DNA from: Natronococcus occultus SP4
GTDB lineage: Archaea > Halobacteriota > Halobacteria > Halobacteriales > Natrialbaceae
Direction of reading: 5' to 3'
Assembly (NCBI RefSeq): GCF_000328685.1
Contig: NC_019974.1
Span: 2,905,001 to 2,969,000, forward strand
Length of the DNA: 64,000 nt
The translations under genes and the position numbers were made by a program. Below, in pieces: positions 27,231-57,566 of the stretch (positions are counted from its first letter, which is position 1; each line of letters begins with the position of its first letter). Below the pieces are notes generated by a model. It had not been told where the DNA came from, did not search any database, and saw nothing but the letters and a program-made list of their open reading frames with translations.

Positions 27231-27242
27231 TTACTTTTTATT

Positions 27243-28142
27243 TTATTTCTTTATTTGAGGGTCGGGGGTCGGCACGACACGGATCTCTCCGAACCCGAAC
27301 TTCGAGTGGGTTCCCATACGGGTGACCCCTGCCTTCGCGGTTTCGACCGGTCGATCGCCCGCGTAGCCGACCGTTTGACCGTGATCGATCGTTTCACACC
27401 GGTAGTCGGTGCCGCTCTCGAGGAACTTCTCCGAACGGGTGCGGAGTTCGTCGCGGTCCGCGGTCCACCACCACGGAACGTTGACGACGTTCGTGCCCGG
27501 ATACGTCGACTGCAGCACGAACGGCGTCACGAGTTCCAGTTCGTGGTGCTCGCTTTCCTCGAGCCGACTGTAGTCGAGTACGTCGAGATCGATCAGTTGG
27601 GCCTCCTTGAGACGGATGCAGCCGTAGCCATAGTTGCGCTTGCTCCCGAACTGCAGGCCGTCGAGTCGCTGGTCATCGAGGGGCAACAGATCCTCGTGGT
27701 CAGCGTGGAGGTAGGCGTGGACGTACCACTTCGTCGTTTCCCGTTGCCGATCCGCATCTGCGGGCCGGCCCTGGATCATCTCGTGGGCCAGTGCCGGGTG
27801 GCCGCTCTGTCGACGAACGTCGTGGGTGTTCAGCGCGTCCCGCGGACGAGAGTCGAGCAGCCACGGCTGGGATGGCCGGCGCAGGAGGAACAAGTCCTCG
27901 TAGCGCTCGACAGGCGGTAAGTTGCTCCCCAGATGCGGGCGTACACCCGATTGTGAGTGCCAATCCGGAAACACGCCAAATTGCCCCGGTACGAAGATGC
28001 CGTGACTTGCGTGGAGATCGCGATGGATCTCGTACGGGAGCTGCCGGCCGAGTGCGTGCTTGATGGCGTTTCCCGAGACGTAGTAGGGATGGCCGATGTA
28101 GTCCATCTCCAGTTCCCAATGAATTTGTTGAATTTTCTTCAT
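27243..28142 (-). CDS. Cas5-like RAMP protein of an HRAMP-type system
   Basis: A 299-residue protein and the last gene of a minus-strand operon. It begins with a short charged stretch followed by YIGHPYYVSGNAIKHALGRQ (about residues 15-34), a RAMP-type beta strand and helix, and ends with a glycine-rich loop MGTHSKFGFGEIRVVP (about 275-290), the G-loop of Cas5/Cas7-type ferredoxin folds. Order and size fit the diverged Cas5 of HRAMP, a predicted derived class 1 CRISPR-Cas system of haloarchaea. An internal start (MDYIGHPYYV, residue 13) is possible. It would bind RNA as part of a backbone complex; this is inferred from family, not shown. Confidence 0.7.
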   Translation of the reverse strand: MKKIQQIHWELEMDYIGHPYYVSGNAIKHALGRQLPYEIHRDLHASHGIFVPGQFGVFPDWHSQSGVRPHLGSNLPPVERYEDLFLLRRPSQPWLLDSRPRDALNTHDVRRQSGHPALAHEMIQGRPADADRQRETTKWYVHAYLHADHEDLLPLDDQRLDGLQFGSKRNYGYGCIRLKEAQLIDLDVLDYSRLEESEHHELELVTPFVLQSTYPGTNVVNVPWWWTADRDELRTRSEKFLESGTDYRCETIDHGQTVGYAGDRPVETAKAGVTRMGTHSKFGFGEIRVVPTPDPQIKK

Positions 28143-28166
28143 TTGTGTACGTTATCTTTAATTCAT

Positions 28167-28886
28167 CTAATCACTACAGGCGCTTTGGAAATCCTCGAGA
28201 TACTGGAGTGCCGTCGACCACGCTCGGATGCGACGCAGGTTCGCGTCCAGCACCATTGCATCCCGATTTCCGTCCGTGGCCAACGGATGATCGGACAACT
28301 GCGACCAGACCGCCGCCCACGACCGCCACGGACGAGCTCCCAGCCGTGCCGACGGACGGCGGTTGGCGTTCCGATCGATTCGGAGCGCGAAGCGATCACC
28401 GGCGTAGACCGTCCGATGTGGAACGATTTCGTCGGGTGGATCAACCACGAGCCGCAACTCATCGAACTCGTGCCCGCTGGCGTAGTTGTCCGCAAGTGCG
28501 GCCACTAACAGCGTGTGATACTTTAGTGAGGTGTAGGGGTAGTATAGTGACTCGTTGAACAGCGCCGCGACGTCGCTCGTCAGCCAGGCGGCGTGCATCG
28601 TCTCCGGATCCGTCTCAGTCAGGAGCTCCCGCACGGCCCGGCCGAGATCCCGCTTCGAGCGATCGCTCGCCGACTCACCAGTGAGCAGCGACAGTCGTTC
28701 TGGCGACGGATGGTTAGGAACGGTCAACTCCGGCGTCCCGGACGGCCGACTTAGTCGCGCCGCATCGCCATCCGCGCCGTGCGGGACCGACTGATTGACT
28801 GGCACCCCTGCGAACGTCTCGTCGGCGTGGGCGTGGGATTGGCCGGTCAATTTGTGGACATCATGACGATACACTTGTATTATCAT
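28167..28886 (-). CDS. unrecognised HRAMP-operon protein
   Basis: A 239-residue protein between the Cas7-like and Cas5-like genes; start and the preceding stop overlap (ATGA). The N-terminal third is polar, the centre (AALFNESLYYPYTSLKYHTL) and C-terminus (ARPWRSWAAVWSQLSDHPLA) are helical with conserved-looking aromatic residues. No motif I know. By position it is a candidate for the uncharacterised conserved component of HRAMP, or for a small-subunit/Cas11-like role. The downstream Cas5-like gene starts 24 bases after its stop. Confidence 0.6.
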   Translation of the reverse strand: MIIQVYRHDVHKLTGQSHAHADETFAGVPVNQSVPHGADGDAARLSRPSGTPELTVPNHPSPERLSLLTGESASDRSKRDLGRAVRELLTETDPETMHAAWLTSDVAALFNESLYYPYTSLKYHTLLVAALADNYASGHEFDELRLVVDPPDEIVPHRTVYAGDRFALRIDRNANRRPSARLGARPWRSWAAVWSQLSDHPLATDGNRDAMVLDANLRRIRAWSTALQYLEDFQSACSD

Positions 28887-29764
28887 ATATCTTTATTTGA
28901 GTGATCGTCGATCCGTTCGTGGAGCGCGTCAACGACGGCTGGCCGGTAGTCGTCGGCCCACTGGTCGTCCTTCCGTTCCATCGCGTCCGTCGGAGTCCGT
29001 GCACGGTCGAAGACGCGGGTGAGTTCGTCGTCCTCGTACAGCGGATTGAGCAGTTCACAGTAGACGACTCCGGCTCCGAAGTTCCGCGCACCGCCGAGTT
29101 GGTATCGGAAGTCCGTTCGGTGGTCGTGGAGAAAGCCGATTGCTTCACACAGCAACCCGAGGAATGCCGGCTTCACCTCGCGGAAGGAGAGGTGCCAGCA
29201 GCCGTCCAAGTTGGCGACTGCATCCAGTTCGACGTTACGCAGTGGTTCGCGGTCGTCCGCATCGTTGCGCGAGACGACGTTTCTGTTCAGCCGGCGGTAG
29301 TGACCCTCGGCCTGACCGCGCGTGTAGTCGACGCTCGCTCGGACCGGGCTGAATCGGATCGGCCGACGCATCAGCTTCCCCGGGTGAGCGTTGAAGCCAC
29401 CGAAGAGGTCGAAGATAACGCAGCCGTCGTCGGTCTCTTCGAGACAGCTTCCCTTCGGATGATACCCGTCTTCGAGATCGCGCTCGTAGACCTCCTCCTT
29501 TCGGAAGTTCGCGTTCGCCTCACCTGGATGGCAGGCCGTTCCACCCCGGTCTTGGACGACGCGTTCCATCCCGTGGCGGAGCCAGCCCGACAGCGAAAAC
29601 GCGGGAATGATGCCGCCGATCTGGTTCTGCGGATCGTCGGCCTCGTAATTCGTGTTCGACGCGTGGTGGCGATCGGTCAGAATCGAGTCTCGAACGACCA
29701 GCAGATCACACTCGAGACGGACGTAGACGTCCGTACACTCCTCGATCGCTACGTCGGCACTCAT
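28883..29764 (-). CDS. Cas7-like RAMP protein of an HRAMP-type system
   Basis: A 293-residue protein. IGGIIPAFSLSGWLRHGMER (about residues 49-68) resembles the Cas7/Csf2 motif in which a glycine-containing strand is followed by a helix with S-x-x-R/G; FDLFGGFNAHPGKLMRRPIR (about 118-137) is like the LFG block of Cas7-type proteins; YQLGGARNFGAGVVYCEL (about 221-238) is the glycine-rich loop. Start ATG at 29764 overlaps the stop of the zinc-ribbon gene (ATGA) and its stop overlaps the next start (ATGA), so the operon is tightly coupled. It would form the RNA-binding backbone. Confidence 0.75.
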   Translation of the reverse strand: MSADVAIEECTDVYVRLECDLLVVRDSILTDRHHASNTNYEADDPQNQIGGIIPAFSLSGWLRHGMERVVQDRGGTACHPGEANANFRKEEVYERDLEDGYHPKGSCLEETDDGCVIFDLFGGFNAHPGKLMRRPIRFSPVRASVDYTRGQAEGHYRRLNRNVVSRNDADDREPLRNVELDAVANLDGCWHLSFREVKPAFLGLLCEAIGFLHDHRTDFRYQLGGARNFGAGVVYCELLNPLYEDDELTRVFDRARTPTDAMERKDDQWADDYRPAVVDALHERIDDHSNKDI

Positions 29765-30153
29765 GGCGCACATCCCTCCGCCGGCGGGCTGAATGCCCGT
29801 AGCGCGAGTTCGGTGAGACACAGCCGTGGGCTGCGCGGCGTGGGCAGCGTGATCGTGCCGAGGCGACCGCCAACCAGCAGTTCTGTTGTGCCGAGCGTCG
29901 GCGACCGGATCCGGCTGGGCGCACAGCCGTGACAGAACAGTCGTGGGACGTCCCACTGCACAGCGTCGGCACAGCGATACGCGTACGCGAACACGATGTC
30001 GGTCTCGTGGAGCGGCGATCCACAACCGATACAGACGGCCGCGTCGGGTTTCGGACCGACCGGGTGGCCTGCCAGGATCTGCGCCGGCGTCGCGGTGACG
30101 GTCAGCTCCTCGCGATGTTCGGCGCGGTACCGACGGCAGTCGTCAGCGGCCAT
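29761..30153 (-). CDS. 130-residue zinc-ribbon protein, first larger gene of the HRAMP operon
   Basis: Contains CIGCGSPLHETDIVF (Cys 41 and 44) and RLFCHGCAP (Cys 74 and 77), forming a four-Cys zinc ribbon, then a beta-rich C-terminal half (LVGGRLGTITLP, PRLCLTELALRAF). The zinc ribbon and the position beside Cas7 recall Csf1 of type IV CRISPR-Cas, but I see no more than this resemblance. ATG at 30153 overlaps the end of the upstream microprotein frame, so I prefer it to longer starts. A close paralogue lies at 31947-32351. Confidence 0.7.
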   Translation of the reverse strand: MAADDCRRYRAEHREELTVTATPAQILAGHPVGPKPDAAVCIGCGSPLHETDIVFAYAYRCADAVQWDVPRLFCHGCAPSRIRSPTLGTTELLVGGRLGTITLPTPRSPRLCLTELALRAFSPPAEGCAP

Positions 30154-30286
30154 CTTCCTCCTCCGTGCTGCGGACGCTGAAACACGCGAAGCAGGGCAAC
30201 TGGTCGCCGGTCGGACCGGCACACCAGTCGTGTTTGCACGATTCCTCAGCAGTACGCTTTTCAACGATCGGATTCGTAGTTGACAT
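30143..30286 (-). CDS. 47-residue four-Cys microprotein, HRAMP operon leader gene
   Basis: Begins MSTTNPIVEKRTAEE and contains CKHDWCAGPTGDQLPCFAC: Cys spaced C-x4-C-x9-C-x2-C, a zinc-ribbon-like pattern. Its stop overlaps the start of the 130-residue gene by 11 bases. The counterpart at 32341-32490 has the same length class and the same DWCxGPxGDxLPCFACF core, so it is a true conserved gene, too short to be noticed by most gene finders. A 21-base inverted repeat (30287-30307) ends one base before the ATG. Confidence 0.75.
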   Translation of the reverse strand: MSTTNPIVEKRTAEESCKHDWCAGPTGDQLPCFACFSVRSTEEEDGR

Positions 30287-30334
30287 GCTTCTCGCACCTC
30301 GAGAAGCGCGGTTCGGTGTCTCCAGCACCGGGCC
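30287..30334 (-). promoter_or_regulatory. twin-hairpin leader of the HRAMP operon (copy 1)
   Basis: Read on the minus strand, a stem of GCTTCTCG paired with CGAGAAGC (loop AGGTG, 30287-30307) ends right at the ATG of the microprotein gene; the loop and the inner stem hold GAGGTG, a ribosome-binding site. A second inverted repeat (30310-30334) lies just upstream, with 9-base arms that pair fully only if two G-U pairs are allowed on the plus strand. The first hairpin is identical in copy 2; the second has a different sequence but a similar shape. It may control translation or be a structured RNA. Confidence 0.65.
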
Positions 30335-30395
30335 ACAGCGGTTCTGCGGCGATCCGTGCTTCTCATCTGGGTCTACAACCTTCTGCTACTTAGAC

Positions 30396-30410: not shown

Positions 30411-30467
30411 TGCTTGGATGCATACTTAGAGGACTGCTTAGCATATGGTGTAGTATTATGTTCTGTG

Positions 30468-30728
30468 ATGGTAGAGAACCTAGTAATGGTTAATCGGAAT
30501 TACGAACCGAACGAACGAGAAAAAGTAATCCTTGAACTTTTCAAAGAAGGGAGAGGAAGCAATGAACCGTGGGGGCGTGCAAATCCCCAGTTCTTTCGTG
30601 AACACACAGATCTCGAAAAAGGGCAAGTTGAGTACGCTCTCCGAAATCTCACTAATGCGGGGTGGATTCGTCGTTTGAATAAAGGCGGATTGTACGAATT
30701 TGTGGAAGATCCACGTACCGGAAATTAA
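30468..30728 (+). CDS. winged-helix transcriptional regulator
   Basis: An 86-residue protein, divergent from the HRAMP operon. It begins MVENLVMVNRNYEPNEREKV (ATG at 30486 is an alternative start). The sequence VILELFKEGRGS, then REHTDLEKGQVEYALRNLTN and AGWIRRLNKGGLYEFVEDPR, gives helix-turn-helix and wing of the PhiH1/MarR-like type common in haloarchaea. The wing GLYEFVEDPR is matched by GLYELIDDPR in the counterpart at 32703-32945. It probably represses or activates the operon through the palindromes in between. Confidence 0.75.
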   Translation: MVENLVMVNRNYEPNEREKVILELFKEGRGSNEPWGRANPQFFREHTDLEKGQVEYALRNLTNAGWIRRLNKGGLYEFVEDPRTGN

Positions 30729-31319: not shown

Positions 31320-31799
31320 TCAGTGTGGAATCCGCCAGTCGATCGGTTCCGACCGGACGATCTCTTCGACTTCGACTCCTGAACCGCACGTCGGGCAGAA
31401 GTTGGTATCCTCGCGTTTAGTTAACTGATTCGGGGTGCCACACGCTCGACAGAGAACCTTGAACCCGGAGAGGTTGCGATACGTCTCCTTCGACTTTGCT
31501 CGGTGACTCCCCGTATCGAGTAGTTCGTAGTTTTCCAGCCTGTTATCGAACGGACAGCCGTTGACATGGTGGACCTCCTTCTCGGCGAGTTCTCCGATAT
31601 CGTCTACGAGCAGCGTCGCGTGAAGTCGGTGAACTTGGACGCGGTGACGAGTGCCGTTGTGCTTCGTATCGATCTCCCTGTGACCGTACGGGTCACACCG
31701 GGTAGCCGGCACTCGAGGGAAATGAACCTGCGACGCGTGGACCGACTTTGCTCTGTGCGAATCGAAAGCCCGATCGCAGTGGGGACAGTCGACGCTCAT
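31320..31799 (-). CDS. HNH endonuclease with N-terminal C2H2 zinc finger
   Basis: A 159-residue protein starting MSVDCPHCDRAFDSHRAKSV: a C2H2 zinc finger (residues 5-27). Residues 70-95 carry EVHHVNGCPFDNRLENYELL, the HNH_3 motif with intact His, Asn and Asn, as in homing endonucleases and phage nucleases. The C-terminus has a CxxC..CxxC ribbon (LCRACG, FCPTCG). It may cut DNA. It lies on the same strand as copy 2 of the HRAMP module, where the Cas7-like gene would be expected. HRAMP loci are reported to carry varied nucleases, so it may be the effector. Confidence 0.8.
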   Translation of the reverse strand: MSVDCPHCDRAFDSHRAKSVHASQVHFPRVPATRCDPYGHREIDTKHNGTRHRVQVHRLHATLLVDDIGELAEKEVHHVNGCPFDNRLENYELLDTGSHRAKSKETYRNLSGFKVLCRACGTPNQLTKREDTNFCPTCGSGVEVEEIVRSEPIDWRIPH

Positions 31800-31946: not shown

Positions 31947-32351
31947 TCATGGTGAACAGCCCTCCGTCGGCCCGCTGAACGCCCGAGGGGAGAGTTCTGC
32001 CAGACACAGCCGAGTGCGACGCGACGTCGGCAGCGCGATCGAGCCGAGACGACCACCGACGAGGACCTCGGTCGCTCCAAGGGTCGGCGAGCGAATCGTG
32101 TCGGGAGCACAGCCGTGACAGAACAGCCGCGGAACGGTCCACGCTCTCGAATCGGCACAGCGATATGCGTACGCAAACACGATATCGGTCTCGCGGAGCG
32201 TCGCGCCGCAACCGATACAGACGGCGGAATGGGGTTGTCGACCGACCGGATGGCCCGCCAGAGTCTGCGTCGGGGTCGCGACGATAGCCGATCCGTCTTC
32301 GAGCGACTCCGGCCTCTCGGTCAGACACCCCGAAGTCTCATCAGCGGGCAT
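31947..32351 (-). CDS. zinc-ribbon protein, HRAMP copy 2
   Basis: A 134-residue paralogue of the protein at 29761-30153: CIGCGATLRETDIVFAYAYR and PRLFCHGCAPDTIRSPTLGA are nearly identical to copy 1 while the N-terminus has diverged. Start ATG at 32351 overlaps the stop of the microprotein gene, as in copy 1. The absence of frameshifts suggests that it is still under selection, although its Cas7 partner is missing here; it might work with the copy 1 complex or with the adjacent HNH nuclease. Confidence 0.75.
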   Translation of the reverse strand: MPADETSGCLTERPESLEDGSAIVATPTQTLAGHPVGRQPHSAVCIGCGATLRETDIVFAYAYRCADSRAWTVPRLFCHGCAPDTIRSPTLGATEVLVGGRLGSIALPTSRRTRLCLAELSPRAFSGPTEGCSP

Positions 32352-32490
32352 CTGACTTACCCTCCGTTCTGTGCGCTACCTGGAAACACGCAAAGCAGGG
32401 GAGCCCGTCTCCCCTGGGTCCCGGACACCAGTCGTGATCGCACGATTCAACCTCGTCACGTTTTTCAACGGTGGAATTCGTAGCTAACAT
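32341..32490 (-). CDS. 49-residue four-Cys microprotein, HRAMP copy 2
   Basis: Begins MLATNSTVEKRDEVESC and has the core CDHDWCPGPRGDGLPCFACF with the same C-x4-C-x9-C-x2-C spacing as the gene at 30143-30286. Its stop overlaps the next start. Conservation of spacing and reading frame between copies, with many base changes, supports a real protein. It is preceded immediately by the same 21-base hairpin. Confidence 0.75.
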   Translation of the reverse strand: MLATNSTVEKRDEVESCDHDWCPGPRGDGLPCFACFQVAHRTEGKSDAR

Positions 32491-32535
32491 GCTTCTCGCA
32501 CCTCGAGAAGCGCAGGCGGTGTCCTAGCACCGCCT
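32491..32535 (-). promoter_or_regulatory. twin-hairpin leader of HRAMP copy 2
   Basis: The hairpin at 32491-32511 is identical, base for base, to 30287-30307 and again ends at the ATG. The upstream hairpin at 32514-32535 has arms AGGCGGTG and CACCGCCT around TCCTAG, a perfect 8-base stem whose bases differ from copy 1. A TATA box lies 53-60 bases further upstream. Confidence 0.65.
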
Positions 32536-32586
32536 GATTCTACTCAGGAACCCTGCACTCCTCCAGTCTCTACTTCCGTGCCCAGC

Positions 32587-32609: not shown

Positions 32610-32702
32610 TCAAGTTAGAAGCTTGCGAGCAGTACTCGAAGAGTTCCCTGCTGGGGATCAGATAGCACTAAGTATGTAATGCAAGTATGCGAACCAAACG
32701 GC

Positions 32703-32945
32703 ATGACACTCTCTAATAGCGATCTCCGCGACGTTGATCGGGATCTACTGGAGTATCTACTCGAGGGACGTGTAACACCAGTCTACGCGCGTGAGCGGAT
32801 GAACGACGAGGGACGCAGAGAGGTGACGAGCACGTATCTCGGCCAGCGGCTCCAGCGTCTCGAGGAGCACGACCACGTGCGAAACCTCTACGAGACCGGT
32901 TTGTACGAACTGATCGACGATCCACGCGAGCGCGAGGGCGACTAA
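32703..32945 (+). CDS. winged-helix transcriptional regulator, HRAMP copy 2
   Basis: An 80-residue PhiH1-like winged-helix protein starting MTLSNSDLRDVDRDLLEYLL; STYLGQRLQRLEEHDHVRNL is the recognition region and YETGLYELIDDPRE the wing. An ATG eight codons upstream (32679) is possible, but the family starts at MTLS. It is divergent from the second HRAMP copy and equivalent in position to the gene at 30468-30728. Confidence 0.8.
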   Translation: MTLSNSDLRDVDRDLLEYLLEGRVTPVYARERMNDEGRREVTSTYLGQRLQRLEEHDHVRNLYETGLYELIDDPREREGD

Positions 32946-33066: not shown

Positions 33067-33723
33067 CTACAGATCGGGGACTGCGTCCTCCCACATCATC
33101 CGGAGGGCTTCGTACCGAATCGCCGCAACCTCCTCGAGCGTCACCCAGCTGTCGTTGCCGGGCTCGACCTCGCCCTCGTTGCAATCCTCGGTGGCAAGTT
33201 CCACCCAGTAATCGTCCTCGAAGACCTCCCGAACAGCCCCAAGCACCGACCCGCCGTCCGGATGGGTCTCAGACCACGTCTCGAGGGAAACGCCGAGGAC
33301 CGCCTCGGCAAACTGCTCGTAGGCGTGGTACTGCACGTACAGGTCACCGAACAGCACGCGAAGCCGTTCGGCTCGCTCGGCTGCCCGCTCGAGGGTCTCG
33401 TCGGATGGCTTCTCGTTGCTGTGGAGATCGATGGCCCACCGCGCGTGTTGGGACTGGCGTTCCAACTCGAAGGACAGCAGGGTCGTATGGAGGTCAGACA
33501 GCGCATGGTGGCAAAACAGCAGCGCGATCCGCCCGCGCTCGGTGTACGCATGGTCGGCCATCTGATACCGGTGTCGGGGGCAGGTCGTGCGGAGGGTCTC
33601 GAGCCAGTCGTCTCGGTCGTCGGCGACGCCCTCCAGAAACAGCCCGAGGTGCTCGTCGGGCGAGAGCTCCTCGAGTATCAGGCGGTGGGCCTCGATCTCG
33701 CGTTCGATGTGGTGTGTATTCAT
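33067..33723 (-). CDS. orc-associated conserved hypothetical protein
   Basis: A 218-residue soluble, helical, acidic protein that I do not recognise. Conserved blocks with the paralogue at 55204-55875 include LSDLHTTLLSFE (against LYDLHTTLLQRA), LYVQYHAYEQFAEAVLGVSLE (against LYTQYHAYDRFAEHHLGVDLE) and DDDWVTLxxLxxxRYxAxR. His residues in DLHTTL and QYHAY are conserved and could be functional. It lies 390 bases downstream of an orc/cdc6 gene, as does its paralogue. It may be involved in replicon maintenance or initiation control; this is inferred from location only. Confidence 0.65.
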   Translation of the reverse strand: MNTHHIEREIEAHRLILEELSPDEHLGLFLEGVADDRDDWLETLRTTCPRHRYQMADHAYTERGRIALLFCHHALSDLHTTLLSFELERQSQHARWAIDLHSNEKPSDETLERAAERAERLRVLFGDLYVQYHAYEQFAEAVLGVSLETWSETHPDGGSVLGAVREVFEDDYWVELATEDCNEGEVEPGNDSWVTLEEVAAIRYEALRMMWEDAVPDL

Positions 33724-33838
33724 CGGACTGGACCTCCCTGGCGATCTGGAGCAACTCGAGATCCGACTCCATCTCGTCGAGATCGGTGTCCGTCGTCAGC
33801 TGACGGTACGGCCCGGCGAGTGAGCCGAGCGTCTGCAT
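33724..33838 (-). pseudogene. damaged small partner gene of the orc-associated pair
   Basis: The minus strand reads WMQTLGSLAGPYRQLTTDTD followed by LDEMESDLELLQIAREV, matching WIRTFGYLTGQYRRLLKDED of the intact small gene at 55872-56132. The frame runs past the expected stop by a one-base shift and the N-terminal half upstream of 33838 lacks a clear start (in-frame sequence extends upstream without ATG). It appears truncated or frameshifted. Confidence 0.55.
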
Positions 33839-33934
33839 CCATATGATCGCGAGCTCCTGATAAGCTCGTGAGTTTAGCCACTCCCTGGTCCGAACGGGCG
33901 GCCCGTTAGCGCCGCTGCGGACTCACCACCCTGT

Positions 33935-34090
33935 GGCGCCCATCACGGCGTACCGCAGCGCGTCGAGGCAGTGATCAGCGTCGGTCGACGCCCCGACGTG
34001 GTCGTCCGTGGAGCCCTCAAACGTCCGGTTACCGCCCTCCAGTGCGCTGCGATCGCCGGTCCATCGGTTTGATATCAGCCGACTCGTCGG
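33935..34090 (-). pseudogene. short C-terminal remnant resembling a phage terminase large subunit
   Basis: The minus strand reads TFEGSTDDHVGASTDADHCL followed by DALRYAVMGATGW and a stop. The H-x-L-D-A-L-R-Y-A ending resembles terminase large subunits, in which a nuclease-domain Asp lies in DALxYA. A more decayed copy (AFEGATDDHVGVPTAAAHWL) is at 46780-46880. Only about 45 residues remain. Confidence 0.4.
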
Positions 34091-34114
34091 GCGCGTCAAC
34101 CGCCCAGATTCCGG

Positions 34115-35335
34115 TTAGTCCTCAGTATCCGCCCCCAGATACGTCGACTCCTCTACATAGCGCAGCCTATTATCGCGCACCCACTGCGGCTCGAACGTCG
34201 TCTCAATCTGTTTGACCCGGCCCTCCCGTCCTCGAGAGTCGATCCAGGTCTCGACTAATCCCATCGTCTCGAGGTCGGTCAGCACGCCCCGAACGGCACG
34301 TTCCCCGAGCTGGAGCGCCTCGGGAAACGTCTCGCCCTCGAGAATCGAGTGGACGTCGGCCGTCGTCACGGGCTGTTTGATCTCCCCACCCTGGTCCCAC
34401 CCGGTGACGGCCGTCAGCACCAGGAAGTGATTCGTCGGGAGATCGAGCAGCTTCGAGACGGTCGCCTCTCGCTCGGTCGCCTCGAGATTCGTCTCGAGAC
34501 ACTCCCTCGTCAACTGGTCGAGCCCGCGCTCGGTGGCGGTCTCGCCGGCCTGGCGAAACAGCGTCAGGGCCTTCCGGGCGTCCCCCCAGCGACGTGCAGC
34601 CTCCGCCACGCCGTAGTCCCGAACCTCCTCCGGCACTGTCCCCTCCCGAAACGCCCGCTCGAGCCGGGGTTCGAGGACGGCCGCCAGTTCGTCCGGCCCG
34701 TACGGTGGGAAAAAGACCGCCTCGTCGCTCATCGCGCTCTCGACCCGGCTATCCAGCCGCAAGTCGACCTCGAGCAGCTCGTTGCTCACCAACCACACGG
34801 AGAGATCGACCCCCCGCTTGAGCTTGCCCTCGCCGCGCAACAGGCGGTAGAAGAAGTCGCTGGGGTCGTAGTTCGAGTCGTGCTGGACGTGGTCGATCTC
34901 GTCCAGAATCAGCACCGTCCACTCCGGATACTCGGCCAGCGCCTCCCAGATACCCTCGAACACGCCGTCCAACCCCTCGTAGGCGCCTTTCTTCTCGCCG
35001 GTGAGTTCGAACAGGATCTCGTTGGCGGCACTAAAGAGCGTCCGGCACTCCTTGAGGTTGACGTACTCGACGGCGACCGCGTCGGTTCGACTGGCGAACT
35101 CCCGGCAGACCCGCCGCGTCGACAGCGTCTTCCCGGTGCCGGGCGGGCCGTAGATCGTCACCGTCGGCGGCAGGTACCCCTCGTGGACCCCGGCGAGTAG
35201 CGACGCCAGCTCGCGCTCCTGGGCGTCGCGGGCGTGGATCTCGTCCGGTTCGGCGAGGGGATCGAGGACGCCCTTCTCACGAAAGAGGCTCTCGTCGGCT
35301 GTCACCTCGTCGAAGAGATCGTCATACTTGCTCAT
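34115..35335 (-). CDS. orc: Orc1/Cdc6 family replication initiator
   Basis: A 406-residue AAA+ ATPase. Walker A IYGPPGTGKT (residues 61-70), Walker B VLILDEIDH (141-149), sensor-type and arginine-finger regions in the centre (WLVSNELLEVDLRLDSRVES), and a C-terminal winged helix (VLTDLETMGLVETWIDSRGR) are present and in family order. It binds origin repeats and recruits MCM. Start at MSKYDDLF is shared with the paralogue at 56346-57566, which is about three quarters identical by eye. No convincing ORB repeats were seen upstream or downstream. The companion gene at 33067-33723 lies downstream. Confidence 0.9.
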   Translation of the reverse strand: MSKYDDLFDEVTADESLFREKGVLDPLAEPDEIHARDAQERELASLLAGVHEGYLPPTVTIYGPPGTGKTLSTRRVCREFASRTDAVAVEYVNLKECRTLFSAANEILFELTGEKKGAYEGLDGVFEGIWEALAEYPEWTVLILDEIDHVQHDSNYDPSDFFYRLLRGEGKLKRGVDLSVWLVSNELLEVDLRLDSRVESAMSDEAVFFPPYGPDELAAVLEPRLERAFREGTVPEEVRDYGVAEAARRWGDARKALTLFRQAGETATERGLDQLTRECLETNLEATEREATVSKLLDLPTNHFLVLTAVTGWDQGGEIKQPVTTADVHSILEGETFPEALQLGERAVRGVLTDLETMGLVETWIDSRGREGRVKQIETTFEPQWVRDNRLRYVEESTYLGADTED

Positions 35336-39440: not shown

Positions 39441-40157
39441 GACTGGTCCTCCGTGGCGGCTTATGGCAGGTCGAGAACAGGCCGCGAACCCCTCCCGCTT
39501 GCTCAACCACAGGGTCTCAGTGAGGGCCGGATCCCCGAGGCTGCCGTCGGCCTCGAGGGGTCGTCCCACGTCGATGGCCGTGGCTGCCGTCGCGACGGGA
39601 ACCCCCCATGCTCGAGCGCGTCGCTGCGGGCGAGGTCGTGCTCGCAGTAGCTCACCCCGGAGGGCCGCTCCGTGAGCCCCTCGAGGACGGCCGCGATGGG
39701 GGCGCCGAGTGCGGCGACCGCGGCCACCACGACGAGCTGGTCGCAGGCGGTCGGGCCGAGCTCGAGGACGACGCGCGGATCTCTGCCGGCGTTGGAGCCG
39801 GAGACGCGTCAGTCGTCGACGACGCGTTCGGCGGCCTCGGCGTGGCGGATGACGTGGGTCTCGTGGCGGAACCCGTCGGACACCCACCCGACCGACGGCA
39901 GCCCCGCCGTGCAGCGCCTGCTGTTCGCGTGTGGTGTCGGCGTCCTTGCGCTTTTGCGGGTGGCGTAGAGCGATTCCCGTGGAGCTGTGTGCATCCCTAG
40001 TTCGGCGAACCAACCGCTACGGCGAGGTGCTCGTTTACCGCTACCGTCTCTCCCCCGATTTGAGGTATCCCTGTTCGTTCCTCCCGAAGTGTCGTCGCGG
40101 GAACGAGCCCTCGGAACCTGTCCAAATAAACAAATACTATCAAAATTAATCAACACT
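39441..40157. other. decayed interval, unassigned minus-strand fragments
   Basis: On the minus strand short protein-like phrases occur in different frames (ETHVIRHAEAAERVVDD near 39830; DQLVVVAAVAALGAPIAAVL near 39700), suggesting a broken membrane-associated protein that I cannot name. The end is AT-richer and precedes the next gene. Confidence 0.35.
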
Positions 40158-40610
40158 ATGCCAATCAGTATAGAATCGGATGAGTGGAACGAAAGCCCAA
40201 GCATCGATATTCTGGAGGTAGAGGTCGAGAGATTTCTCCGGAAGAATCCGGAGAAGGCGTACACAGTATCGGAAATCACAGACCATCTCACAGATGAGAA
40301 ACCGACGGTGTTTCCTGAAAAACTACTTACTGATGAGAGAGACGCCGACTCATCTCGACTCGCGTTAGTCACATCTCGATTGGAAAAACTAGTCTGGCAC
40401 AACCGCGTTGAAGCCCGTTCTCTTGACGGCCAGTTGTACTATACCGACGATGAAGATGGGTGGTTTCCGATAGCCGAACTAGAACGGGATATTCCGAGTC
40501 GGTTCATCGGAGTCGAGCAGGAGATCGAGGAAATAAAAGAGAGGTTAGATGGCCTACAGATGGTCCTTGAAAACCACGACCAGTTTCCCGATGAGTTCGA
40601 CTTGCAATAG
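40158..40610 (+). CDS. winged-helix protein with C-terminal coiled coil
   Basis: A 150-residue protein. Residues 15-95 form a predicted winged helix (AYTVSEITDHLTD, SRLALVTSRLEKLVWHNRVE, GQLYYTDDED), followed by a helical coiled coil (GVEQEIEEIKERLDGLQMVL). ATG at 40158 follows an AT-rich leader; longer in-frame starts run through unlikely composition. It probably regulates transcription or acts as a DNA-binding accessory factor. No partner gene lies close by. Confidence 0.7.
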   Translation: MPISIESDEWNESPSIDILEVEVERFLRKNPEKAYTVSEITDHLTDEKPTVFPEKLLTDERDADSSRLALVTSRLEKLVWHNRVEARSLDGQLYYTDDEDGWFPIAELERDIPSRFIGVEQEIEEIKERLDGLQMVLENHDQFPDEFDLQ

Positions 40611-40913
40611 AGACGAACCATCACCAACCAGAGTACTACATTGGTGCCTGTACTGAACGGTCACTACAGAGTCGAAAAGGCATGTGGCGGCCGTGGAGAG
40701 CGACACGAGCAGAGATCGTGTCGCCGGTCGCGTCTCGGCTCCGTGTGGACCCCCCGGGCGTCGTCGAACCCGGTGCCCGACAGCGACCAACCCGTCGAGC
40801 CGGCGACGACACACAGCCGCGAGCCCGGGCTCTCGCAGAGCCTCAATTTAACCTAAATTGGCTGCACAATTAATATGAAAACGTTTTATTTTATCGCAGT
40901 TAGACGCTACTTC
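40611..40913. other. intergenic, no gene supported
   Basis: The last 70 bases are AT-rich (AATTTAACCTAAATTG is near-palindromic, about 40846-40861) and likely hold the promoter for the next gene. Confidence 0.35.
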
Positions 40914-55203: not shown

Positions 55204-55875
55204 CTAGTCTGGCCGGCAGTCGGACTCGTCGAGGACGGTAAACGTGTCCCGGAACGCCCTGTACCGGTCCTCGACCAGGCTGTCGAGCGTCACCCAGTCG
55301 TCGTCTCCGCGTTCGATACCGAAGCCGTCGTTGACGAACTGCTCGAGGTCGTCGGGCTGTGCTTGCTCGAGGACCTCGCTTGTCGCCGCACGCACGTTGT
55401 CGGCGTAAAAATGGGGTCCGAACCAGATCTCGAGGTCGACCCCGAGGTGGTGCTCGGCGAACCGGTCGTAGGCGTGGTACTGCGTGTAGAGATCGACCGT
55501 CAGCAGCGTGATTCGGTCGGGCCGCTCGCGGGCGCGCTCGAGCGCGGCCTCGGAGAGCCCGTCGTCGCGTTCGTGATCGATCACCAGGACGGCCCGGTGG
55601 TGCTCGCGGAGGCGGGCCCGCTGGAGCAACGTCGTGTGGAGATCGTACAACGCGACCTGCCTGGCGTTGGCCGCGATCCGGAGTGATTCGATGAACGTGC
55701 GGTCGAGTCCACGATACCCCCTGACCGGACAGCTCTCGTAGAGGCGCTCAACCCACCGATCGAGGCCGGCGGCCTCGGCCTCCAGCACGAGCTGGATGCG
55801 CTCCAGCGGCTCGAGGTCGGCGAGGACCTCCTCGGTGAACTCGTCGAACTCACGCTCGATGTCTCGTTTCGTCAT
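55204..55875 (-). CDS. orc-associated conserved hypothetical protein (paralogue)
   Basis: A 223-residue protein starting MTKRDIEREFDEFTEEVLAD. It shares the DLHTTLLQRA, QYHAYDRFAEHHLGVDLEIW and DDDWVTLDSLVEDRYRAFRD blocks with the protein at 33067-33723. Its start overlaps the stop of the 86-residue gene (ATGA), so the two are co-translated. The pair lies just downstream of an orc gene, in the same order and strand as at 33-35 kb. Function unknown. Confidence 0.7.
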   Translation of the reverse strand: MTKRDIEREFDEFTEEVLADLEPLERIQLVLEAEAAGLDRWVERLYESCPVRGYRGLDRTFIESLRIAANARQVALYDLHTTLLQRARLREHHRAVLVIDHERDDGLSEAALERARERPDRITLLTVDLYTQYHAYDRFAEHHLGVDLEIWFGPHFYADNVRAATSEVLEQAQPDDLEQFVNDGFGIERGDDDWVTLDSLVEDRYRAFRDTFTVLDESDCRPD

Positions 55876-56132
55876 GGGTCTCGGAGATCGAGAACGCGGT
55901 TGACAAGGTCGGCGTCCTCGTGGAGTTGGTCGATGTCCTCGTCTTTCAGGAGCCGACGATACTGGCCGGTGAGATAGCCGAACGTCCGGATCCACTTGAT
56001 CTGCAGGTGCTGTTCCTCGAGCGAGTCGGCCTCGCCCGGCTCGATATGCTTATGAGTCGTCTTGATCGTCTCCTCGAGGAGCTCGAGGATCTCTTCTCGA
56101 TCGGTCTGGTCGGTTTGTTCGATTTCGTTCAT
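55872..56132 (-). CDS. small helical partner of the orc-associated protein
   Basis: An 86-residue, very acidic, all-helical protein (MNEIEQTDQTDREEILELLE at the start; HLQIKWIRTFGYLTGQYRRL, about residues 42-61). It is coupled by ATGA to the 223-residue gene. A damaged equivalent precedes the 33067-33723 gene. A two-gene arrangement with a small acidic first protein resembles toxin-antitoxin operons, but there is no sequence evidence for a toxin. Confidence 0.65.
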   Translation of the reverse strand: MNEIEQTDQTDREEILELLEETIKTTHKHIEPGEADSLEEQHLQIKWIRTFGYLTGQYRRLLKDEDIDQLHEDADLVNRVLDLRDP

Positions 56133-56345
56133 ACGTTGTATCGGTCGCCGACAGCGCCGACGTGCTCGACTGAGCCGACAGTGGTCCGTCGCTCGCTGTC
56201 GGGTGATATAAGCTGTATGTGCCGCTGCCGACATTACTATATACTATATAAATCGAGAGTTTCAGCAATTATCCGAAAATGAACGGTATGAGGGCCGGTA
56301 GCGGCGGTATTCCGTATATGGAGTGGGTGTTTCTGAGGTAAAAAT

Positions 56346-57566
56346 CTACCGGGAGATGACAATCTCGAGATAGGTCGAGTCGGTCGCGTACTCGGTGACC
56401 GCTTCGTGGACCCACTGCGGGTCGAACGTCGTCTCGATCCGTTTCTGTCTGCCGCCCCGGCCCTTCGATTCGATCCACGTCTCGACGAGCCCCATCGTCT
56501 CGAGGTCGGTGACGATGGTTTGAATAGTACGTGAGCCGAGCTGTAACTCCTCGGGGTGGCGGTCCCGGTGGAGATAGTCGTGGATCTCGCCCGTCGTAAC
56601 GGGCTGTTTGATCCCGTCGGCGCCGTTCCAGGCAGTGCTCCCCGTCAGCACCAGAAAATGATTGACCGGGAGATCACACAGTTTCTCGATGGTCGCCGCC
56701 TTCTCGGTCGTCCCAAGGGTCGCGTCGATGCAGTCGATCGTCAGCCAATTGCGCCCGCACTCGCTTGCGTGCTCGCCGGCCTGGCGGAACAGCCGCAGCG
56801 CCTTCCGAGCGTCGCCCCACCGCCGGGCGGCCTCGCGGACGCCGTACTCAAAGACAGCGTCGGGCACCGCCCCGTCCCGGAACGCCCGCGCGAGACGTGG
56901 CTCAAGGACTACTCTCAGCTCGCGTTCGCCGTACGGCGGGAAGCAGACCGCCTCGTCGCTCATTGCGCTCTCGACGCGGCTGTCCAGGTGGAGATCGACC
57001 TCGAGTAGTTCGTTGCTCACCGGCCACACCGAGAGGTCGATCCCCCGTTTCAGCTTCCCCTCGCCGCGCAGCAGCCGGTAGAAGAAGTCGTTGGGGTCGT
57101 AGTTCGCGTCGTGGCGGATGTGGTCGATCTCGTCCAGGATCAACACGGTCCAGTCGGGGTAGTCCTCGAGCGCGGTCCAGATGCCCGCGAACACGCCGTC
57201 CAACCCCTCGTAGGCGCCTTTCTTCTCACCGGTGAGTTCGGCGAGGATCTCGTTGGCCGCGCTGAACAGCGTCCGGCACTCCTTGAGGTTGACGTACTCG
57301 ACGGCGACCGCGTCGGTGCGGGCGGCGAACTCCCGGGCGACCCGTCTCGTCGTCAGCGTCTTGCCCGTCCCCGGTGGGCCGTAGATCGCGACCGTCGGCG
57401 GGAGGTAGCCGTCGTGGACGCCGTTGAGCAGCCGCGCCAGCTCGCGTTCCTGGTCCTTGCGGGCGTGGATCTCCGGAGGGTCGGCGAGCGGATCGAGGAC
57501 GCCCTTGTCGATGAAGGGGCTGTCGTCGGGCGCCGTCGCGGCGAAGAGGTCGTCGTACTTGCTCAT
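56346..57566 (-). CDS. orc: Orc1/Cdc6 family replication initiator (paralogue)
   Basis: A 406-residue AAA+ protein of the same length as the one at 34115-35335 and closely similar. IYGPPGTGKT, VLILDEIDH, WPVSNELLEVDLHLDSRVES and the C-terminal winged helix (IVTDLETMGLVETWIESKGR) are intact. The start MSKYDDLF matches the paralogue; an extra ATG lies one codon upstream. The two genes probably come from one replicon lineage. No origin repeats were recognised in the flanks. Confidence 0.9.
   Translation of the reverse strand: MSKYDDLFAATAPDDSPFIDKGVLDPLADPPEIHARKDQERELARLLNGVHDGYLPPTVAIYGPPGTGKTLTTRRVAREFAARTDAVAVEYVNLKECRTLFSAANEILAELTGEKKGAYEGLDGVFAGIWTALEDYPDWTVLILDEIDHIRHDANYDPNDFFYRLLRGEGKLKRGIDLSVWPVSNELLEVDLHLDSRVESAMSDEAVCFPPYGERELRVVLEPRLARAFRDGAVPDAVFEYGVREAARRWGDARKALRLFRQAGEHASECGRNWLTIDCIDATLGTTEKAATIEKLCDLPVNHFLVLTGSTAWNGADGIKQPVTTGEIHDYLHRDRHPEELQLGSRTIQTIVTDLETMGLVETWIESKGRGGRQKRIETTFDPQWVHEAVTEYATDSTYLEIVISR

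Follow-up and report, generated by a model that had tools for sequence, protein, structure and literature searches.

An HRAMP operon of Natronococcus occultus SP4 with a conserved structured leader RNA and a probably Cas10-derived third protein

Which kind of effector is encoded by a haloarchaeal operon that carries Cas7-like and Cas5-like genes without any CRISPR array, and what RNA stands beside it? This question is raised by a five-gene operon in a 64-kb stretch of Natronococcus occultus SP4 DNA (NC_019974.1, 2,905,001-2,969,000), hereafter the window, whose positions are used as coordinates throughout. An earlier note on this DNA had assigned the operon to HRAMP, the haloarchaeal, array-less, type III-derived systems in which Cas5 and Cas7 are diverged and are joined by uncharacterised proteins and by nucleases, most often HNH and PD-(D/E)xK (PMC8730458, PMC12669027). 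In this study, we put at roughly 65% the probability that the operon encodes a reduced type III-like HRAMP ribonucleoprotein with a switch in its leader RNA. All five open reading frames (ORFs) that had been claimed were found, on the minus strand and with the same boundaries. The note had not included the leader RNA at 30287-30364, nor a second copy of leader, mic and znr at 31947-32563. The operon and its leader are composed as follows, in the order of transcription.

30287..30364, minus strand: structured 5′ leader RNA, a three-way junction (model match 30301-30364) and a 3′ hairpin ending at the mic ATG
30143..30286, minus strand: mic, microprotein of 47 aa with four Cys (CxxxxC...CFxCF), the first ORF after the leader RNA
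29761..30153, minus strand: znr, zinc-ribbon-like protein of 130 aa, family F6 (22 members)
28883..29764, minus strand: cas7, Cas7-like protein (Csm3-type RAMP; PADLOC Csm3), 293 aa
28167..28886, minus strand: p239, conserved third core protein, 239 aa, proposed to be a reduced Cas10 N-terminal (HD-like) part
27243..28142, minus strand: cas5, Cas5-like protein (Cmr3-type RAMP; PADLOC Cmr3), 299 aa

The ATGA overlaps previously described between most genes were found at znr/cas7 and cas7/p239, whereas mic and znr overlap by 11 nt and a gap of 24 nt separates p239 from cas5. No match to any known protein family was obtained for mic, nor to a named family for znr. Two AT-rich 22-mers, 86% alike, were observed at the 3′ ends of cas5 (27238-27259) and cas7 (28880-28901), where the surrounding DNA is GC-rich.

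As a single sequence, the window Cas7 gave weak matches (Pfam RAMPs, 0.054; PADLOC Csm3, 1.4e-4), and the window Cas5 matched PADLOC Cmr3 at 6e-4. Among their relatives, Csm3 was matched by 22 of 39 Cas7 proteins (best 1.8e-6) and Cmr3 by all 47 Cas5 proteins (best 6.9e-9), and these independent PADLOC profiles, matched across both families, support the Cas7-like and Cas5-like calls at the sequence level. With alignments built here, hhalign gave an E of 0.004 for Cas7 against Csm3, in the expected stretch, and no significant result for Cas5 against Cmr3, both from shallow profiles; because these profiles were shallow and weak, the PADLOC models were relied on. PDB sequence searches with the Cas7, p239 and Cas5 profiles returned no matches, and the NCBI annotation of these genes on plasmids reads hypothetical proteins.

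Relatives of Cas7 were found in 104 of 391 halobacterial genomes (E <= 1e-3) and relatives of Cas5 in 113, and about a quarter of the genomes carry the HRAMP system, in the form of subfamilies A and B, which occur together in some species (e.g. at locus L014). The window operon belongs to subfamily A, with a Cas7 identity of 68-93% to relatives within A and of 54-59% to those of B; it has the same three core proteins as B, and its subfamily has variable 5′ partners. The order cas7-p239-cas5 is kept across the relatives, a conservation far beyond chance, and the three proteins are 71-93% identical to those of the nearest Natronococcus relatives and retain the invariant residues. Both diverged Cas7 and Cas5 nearest to type III and a conserved uncharacterised protein (p239) are present, as in published HRAMP descriptions; the HNH nuclease of these descriptions is present in subfamily B and intact beside the operon in L001 and L002, but broken in the window. 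Matched to these descriptions in reviews, the operon is very probably a member of the known HRAMP kind, as had been proposed. It had also been called complete: the five ORFs are indeed open and intact, whereas an adjoining HNH gene, intact in two relatives, is a pseudogene here. As an HRAMP member the locus is real, intact and ordinary. What appears new is the leader RNA, which is firm, its likely role as a switch, a probable Cas10-like third protein, and a RuvC remnant coupled to other A-type operons; neither the leader RNA, nor the Cas10-like fold, nor the coupled mini-TnpB is mentioned in the HRAMP reviews (PMC8730458, PMC12669027).

The absence of CRISPR repeats and of Cas1, likewise claimed before, also held. 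No CRISPR-like array was found in the window, a repeat search of 24-37 kb was negative as well, and no Cas1 was found in the whole genome (4.3 Mb, 99.95% complete, one cas7); the lack of an array in the window and of Cas1 in the genome is again as in HRAMP. In the same genome, Cas6 was not found by TIGR01877, Csm3 was not found, and the sole Cas10 match elsewhere was HD-domain-only, with no full Cas10 detectable. Cas1 was absent from 54 of 93 genomes with strong HRAMP matches; therefore, a guide from a local CRISPR system is not a general requirement. A CRISPR RNA from the host genome is unlikely to load the complex.

The RNA at the head of these operons was then described by three models, R1 from eight A-type sequences, R2 as R1 refined to 25, and R3 from four B-type sequences. 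Both subfamilies were found to have the hairpin GGTGCTNGNGACACC upstream of cas7 and on its strand. R2 gave 50 matches upstream of cas7 on its strand vs. 9 at other sites in 1.46 Mb, of which three were duplicate units, and it detected leaders in 31 of the 42 A-type loci and in 10 of the 37 B-type loci; R3 detected them in 36 of 37 B-type loci, each 382-681 nt upstream of cas7 and reaching up to the first gene's AUG. The leader, about 80-95 nt in length, was matched in the window by R2 with 62.2 bits and by R3 at 30284-30361 (E 0.008), and relatives of it also precede the duplicated unit and occur at four related loci. Folding of the segment ahead of the mic AUG gave -37.3 kcal/mol (fold z -3.0). 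In 27 of 36 B-type leaders, TATA-like motifs cluster between -35 and -30 relative to the RNA start, from which we infer that the mRNA probably starts at the leader. In alignment A11, 92.7% of cells were paired, with 55 double changes vs. 17 +- 3.4 in shuffled and 29-57% paired in slid controls, and in A14, 95.9% were paired, with 101 double changes vs. 23 +- 7.5 and slid controls of 24-48%; both alignments were fitted to their own models, which affects the counts and weighs against them, and the unfitted seed alignment A7 showed a similar, weaker covariation trend. Alignment A13, in which the rows L280 and L284 had been cut wrongly, was left out. Rfam gave no match for the leader in the 24-37 kb part of the window or in four relatives. 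Judged by these sequence comparisons, the leader RNA is almost certainly real, conserved and covarying.

In all 50 tested matches, the ATG of an ORF follows 7-23 nt after the leader. Moreover, stem 1 has a 3′ strand able to re-pair with the nucleotides directly next to this ATG, by 5.7 bp on average vs. 4.4 bp in shuffled sequences, and such re-pairing beside the AUG suggests that the leader is a translational switch. Similar to translational riboswitches and structured 5′ leaders, alternative pairing would expose or sequester the start region, and unlike the known riboswitches, the leader matches no Rfam family. Structured leaders have been held atypical of haloarchaea; 72% of Haloferax volcanii mRNAs were leaderless (PMC4983044). 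A covarying structured leader shared by many haloarchaeal genes would be an exception to this rarity.

The third core protein, p239, is encoded between cas7 and cas5 at almost every locus, was found only in Halobacteria, and carries the invariant residues R7, H8, D9, K12, H18, D39, H98 and H124. AlphaFold models were obtained for the window protein (pLDDT 93.8) and for a B-type orthologue of about 50% identity (pLDDT 89.6). Searched against 350,542 PDB chains, the window model returned Cas10 in all of its first 26 matches (best E 0.25) and the orthologue in all of its first 29 (best E 0.035), the matched chains being Csm1/Cmr2 of several species. This fold search was blind, yet returned the one subunit wanting beside the Csm3/Cmr3-like pair. 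The GGDD motif was absent from p239, that is, the Cas10 palm that marks type III was not found in it. The best profile-profile stretch paired the N-terminal HDxxK of p239 with HDIGK of Cas10, with scores within the control range; a motif colinearity seen by eye (HDxxK, AD..LS, SLxxH) was not counted as evidence. From the models, p239 is probably derived from Cas10, as a reduced N-terminal part.

Taken as a mechanism, Cas7 would form a short RNA-binding filament that Cas5 caps, and p239 would stand in for Cas10 as a large subunit reduced to its N-terminal (HD-like) part; with the cyclase palm gone, there would be no cyclic-oligoadenylate signalling. When the 3′ strand of the closing stem of the leader pairs with the 5′ strand, the junction would be formed and the region before the AUG left free, and when it pairs instead with the segment abutting the AUG, the start region would be sequestered; the coupled ORFs would follow the translation of the first gene. 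Once switched on, the complex may act on foreign nucleic acid via its HD-like subunit, and in other members the partner nucleases (exonuclease, HNH, RuvC) would act too. A defence function is predicted with good confidence.

Several observations weigh against this explanation. The re-pairing signal is modest, and the leader was found ahead of non-HRAMP genes (SWIM-like, coiled-coil and F13-like) and in 13 of 18 genomes negative for HRAMP. Because of these occurrences, the link between leader and HRAMP may be one of shared regulation only, and the leader as an HRAMP-exclusive RNA was dropped. The same occurrences speak for a general haloarchaeal regulatory element that senses a metabolite, a metal or stress and is not effector-specific, whereas the leader is near-universal in B-type HRAMP operons and several of the non-HRAMP genes behind it belong to families that also head HRAMP operons (mic, F13, F14, znr); such a general element is conceivable, at somewhat longer odds than even. 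Alternatively, instead of or besides acting as a switch, the leader may serve as the HRAMP guide or scaffold: its transcription would be driven by the TATA box, it would be released ahead of the AUG, and Cas7, Cas5 and p239 would bind it. This would supply the RNA partner missing from a system without an array in a host without Cas6, and fits with a structured RNA heading 36 of 37 B-type and 31 of 42 A-type operons and with more copies in trans in the host genome. Nevertheless, the leader's position at the start codon in every tested match and the AUG-side re-pairing that it keeps are what a cis element should show, it stands before unrelated genes and in genomes that lack HRAMP, and it has no obvious variable spacer-like segment; this guide role is improbable. 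A little less probable still is a reading of HRAMP as a Cas10-HD/Cas7/Cas5 ribonucleoprotein with its own leader RNA, plus the trans copies, loaded as guide or scaffold; if true, one RNA would both switch the operon and arm the complex, giving RNA-dependent immunity without CRISPR memory. Since some genes outside HRAMP have the leader in front of them too, it is more likely to regulate in cis than to be a guide, and a mainly cis-regulatory leader is what we expect with good reason. The data point to a switch that HRAMP has in common with some small haloarchaeal genes, and less to a dedicated guide.

For p239, an independent helical subunit (e.g. Cas11-like or an adaptor) is the competing possibility. 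It would account for a protein without any family match, PADLOC Cas10 match or significant sequence or structure match: none of the Cas10 fold matches is individually significant (no E < 1e-3; TM-scores low, 0.2-0.5), and the sequence tests against Csm1 were not significant (8 of 60 shuffles as good; z 1.96 in another test). However, among 350,542 chains Cas10 of several species ranked first for both of the separately modelled orthologues, and Cas10 is exactly the subunit that a Csm3-like Cas7 plus a Cmr3-like Cas5 would lack; an origin outside Cas10 is accordingly regarded as the less probable of the two, with perhaps a third of the weight. A decaying, functionless remnant in SP4 might be suspected from the broken HNH1, the second leader/mic/znr unit without cas genes and the adjoining terminase remnants, but the five open ORFs and the identity and invariant residues kept by cas7, p239 and cas5 make it very doubtful, and the reduced type III-like HRAMP ribonucleoprotein with a leader switch is preferred.

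Leaders were also observed apart from HRAMP core genes, in the host genome before a module of F13-like and zinc-ribbon genes and before a coiled-coil gene. An orphan HRAMP 5′ module (G000:C1:1253132-1253193; L243:6133-6194) consists of the leader, then an F13-like gene and a zinc-ribbon homologue, with no cas genes. Leaders precede SWIM-like zinc proteins, whose C-terminus resembles mic, at L246:5084-5150 (weak), L289:1935-1995 and in L284, and a shorter leader stands before a coiled-coil protein that recurs and typically starts MSTDDSRGNQTPDR, at G000:C1:3001543-3001589, L001:675-731 and in L285, L295 and L296. Peptides akin to mic also follow the leader RNA at other sites.

The nuclease partners differ between the subfamilies. 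In subfamily B, the genes after cas7-p239-cas5 encode an RNase_H_2/DEDD-type exonuclease (3e-6) and a protein with an HNH match (Pfam 4e-8), and znr homologues are the first gene of the operons. The HNH gene is present in 30 B loci and replaced by F16, PD-(D/E)xK-like as read by eye alone, in 6; the two never occurred together in the locus set. Unlike these, subfamily A has no downstream exonuclease and HNH, and the window HNH is a pseudogene. The 5′ partners in A are a zinc-ribbon protein, small TAT-signal-like proteins, a 44-aa protein, or a RuvC/zinc-ribbon TnpB remnant of 197-223 aa, which occurs in five loci of three or four lineages and overlaps cas7 by 8-14 nt.

L021:7325-7987, L028:7394-7987, L131:8336-8929, L145:7403-7996, L148:7282-7953: TnpB remnants (Cas12f1-like_TNB 9e-10)

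The catalytic D/E/D of the remnant is apparently intact; its coupling to A-type operons is firm as anatomy, and the remnant is a candidate operon nuclease. Small proteins with TAT-like RRxFL starts, translationally coupled to cas7, were observed in L016, L020, L026, L137, L142, L147 and L148, odd company for an intracellular RNA-binding complex.

Compared with type III (Csm/Cmr), the operon shares a Csm3-like Cas7, a Cmr3-like Cas5 and a possible Cas10 remnant, and differs in that no array, Cas6, Cas11, Cas10 cyclase palm or full Cas10 was detected. ARAMP of Asgard archaea is likewise an array-less RAMP derivative, related to HRAMP (PMC8730458); most ARAMPs carry Cas1 (PMC8730458), unlike the host genome here. 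In subtype III-I, Cas10i is also strongly diverged and recognised only by structure, but its N-terminal polymerase domain is gone and its partner is a multidomain Cas7-11i (PMC12669027), whereas p239 would be what is left of the N-terminal part, next to Cas7 and Cas5 as individual proteins. HRAMP dates from 2019 (Makarova et al.) and is without an assigned mechanism, regulation or RNA partner in PMC8730458 or PMC12669027, and the conserved leader provides a concrete RNA for testing it. If p239 is Cas10-like, HRAMP would be a complete minimal type III-derived effector, not an odd RAMP pair. A-type operons were found on Halobacterium salinarum plasmids, and strain 91-R6 carries the operon HBSAL_RS12655-12630; a laboratory species is therefore at hand for testing these ideas.

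Upstream of the operon lie a second leader-mic-znr unit, 76-84% identical and without cas genes of its own, then HNH2 and HNH1, with two divergent genes.

32491..32563, minus strand: second leader RNA copy (R2 62.4 bits; own-genome search)
32341..32490, minus strand: mic2, duplicate of mic
31947..32351, minus strand: znr2, duplicate of znr from the same duplication
31320..31799, minus strand: HNH2, HNH-like with a C-terminal zinc ribbon (weak Pfam HNH_3, 0.047), at the same place in L001 and L002
30775..31260, minus strand: HNH1 pseudogene, with a stop soon after the start and its 3′ end lost
30414..30728, plus strand: divergent winged-helix protein (weak HTH_27 match)
32679..32945, plus strand: second divergent winged-helix-like protein, next to the duplicated leader-mic-znr unit

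In L001 and L002, HNH1 is an unbroken gene of 203 aa, the L002 copy matching Pfam HNH at 3.7e-4, and is distantly akin to the B-type HNH (hhalign E 1.5e-7). Two cassettes of ORC1/Cdc6, an 86-aa protein (F42) and a p218-like protein were also observed on the minus strand (33067-35335 and 55204-57566); the cassette runs on into a terminase large subunit in L002, L008 and L133, with remnants in the window at 33929-34027 and 39599-40840. A provirus or viral origin via this cassette was rejected, as the window terminase consists of remnants and most other HRAMP loci have none. No relatives were found in phage records or viral contigs. The winged-helix protein at 30414..30728 is a candidate regulator.

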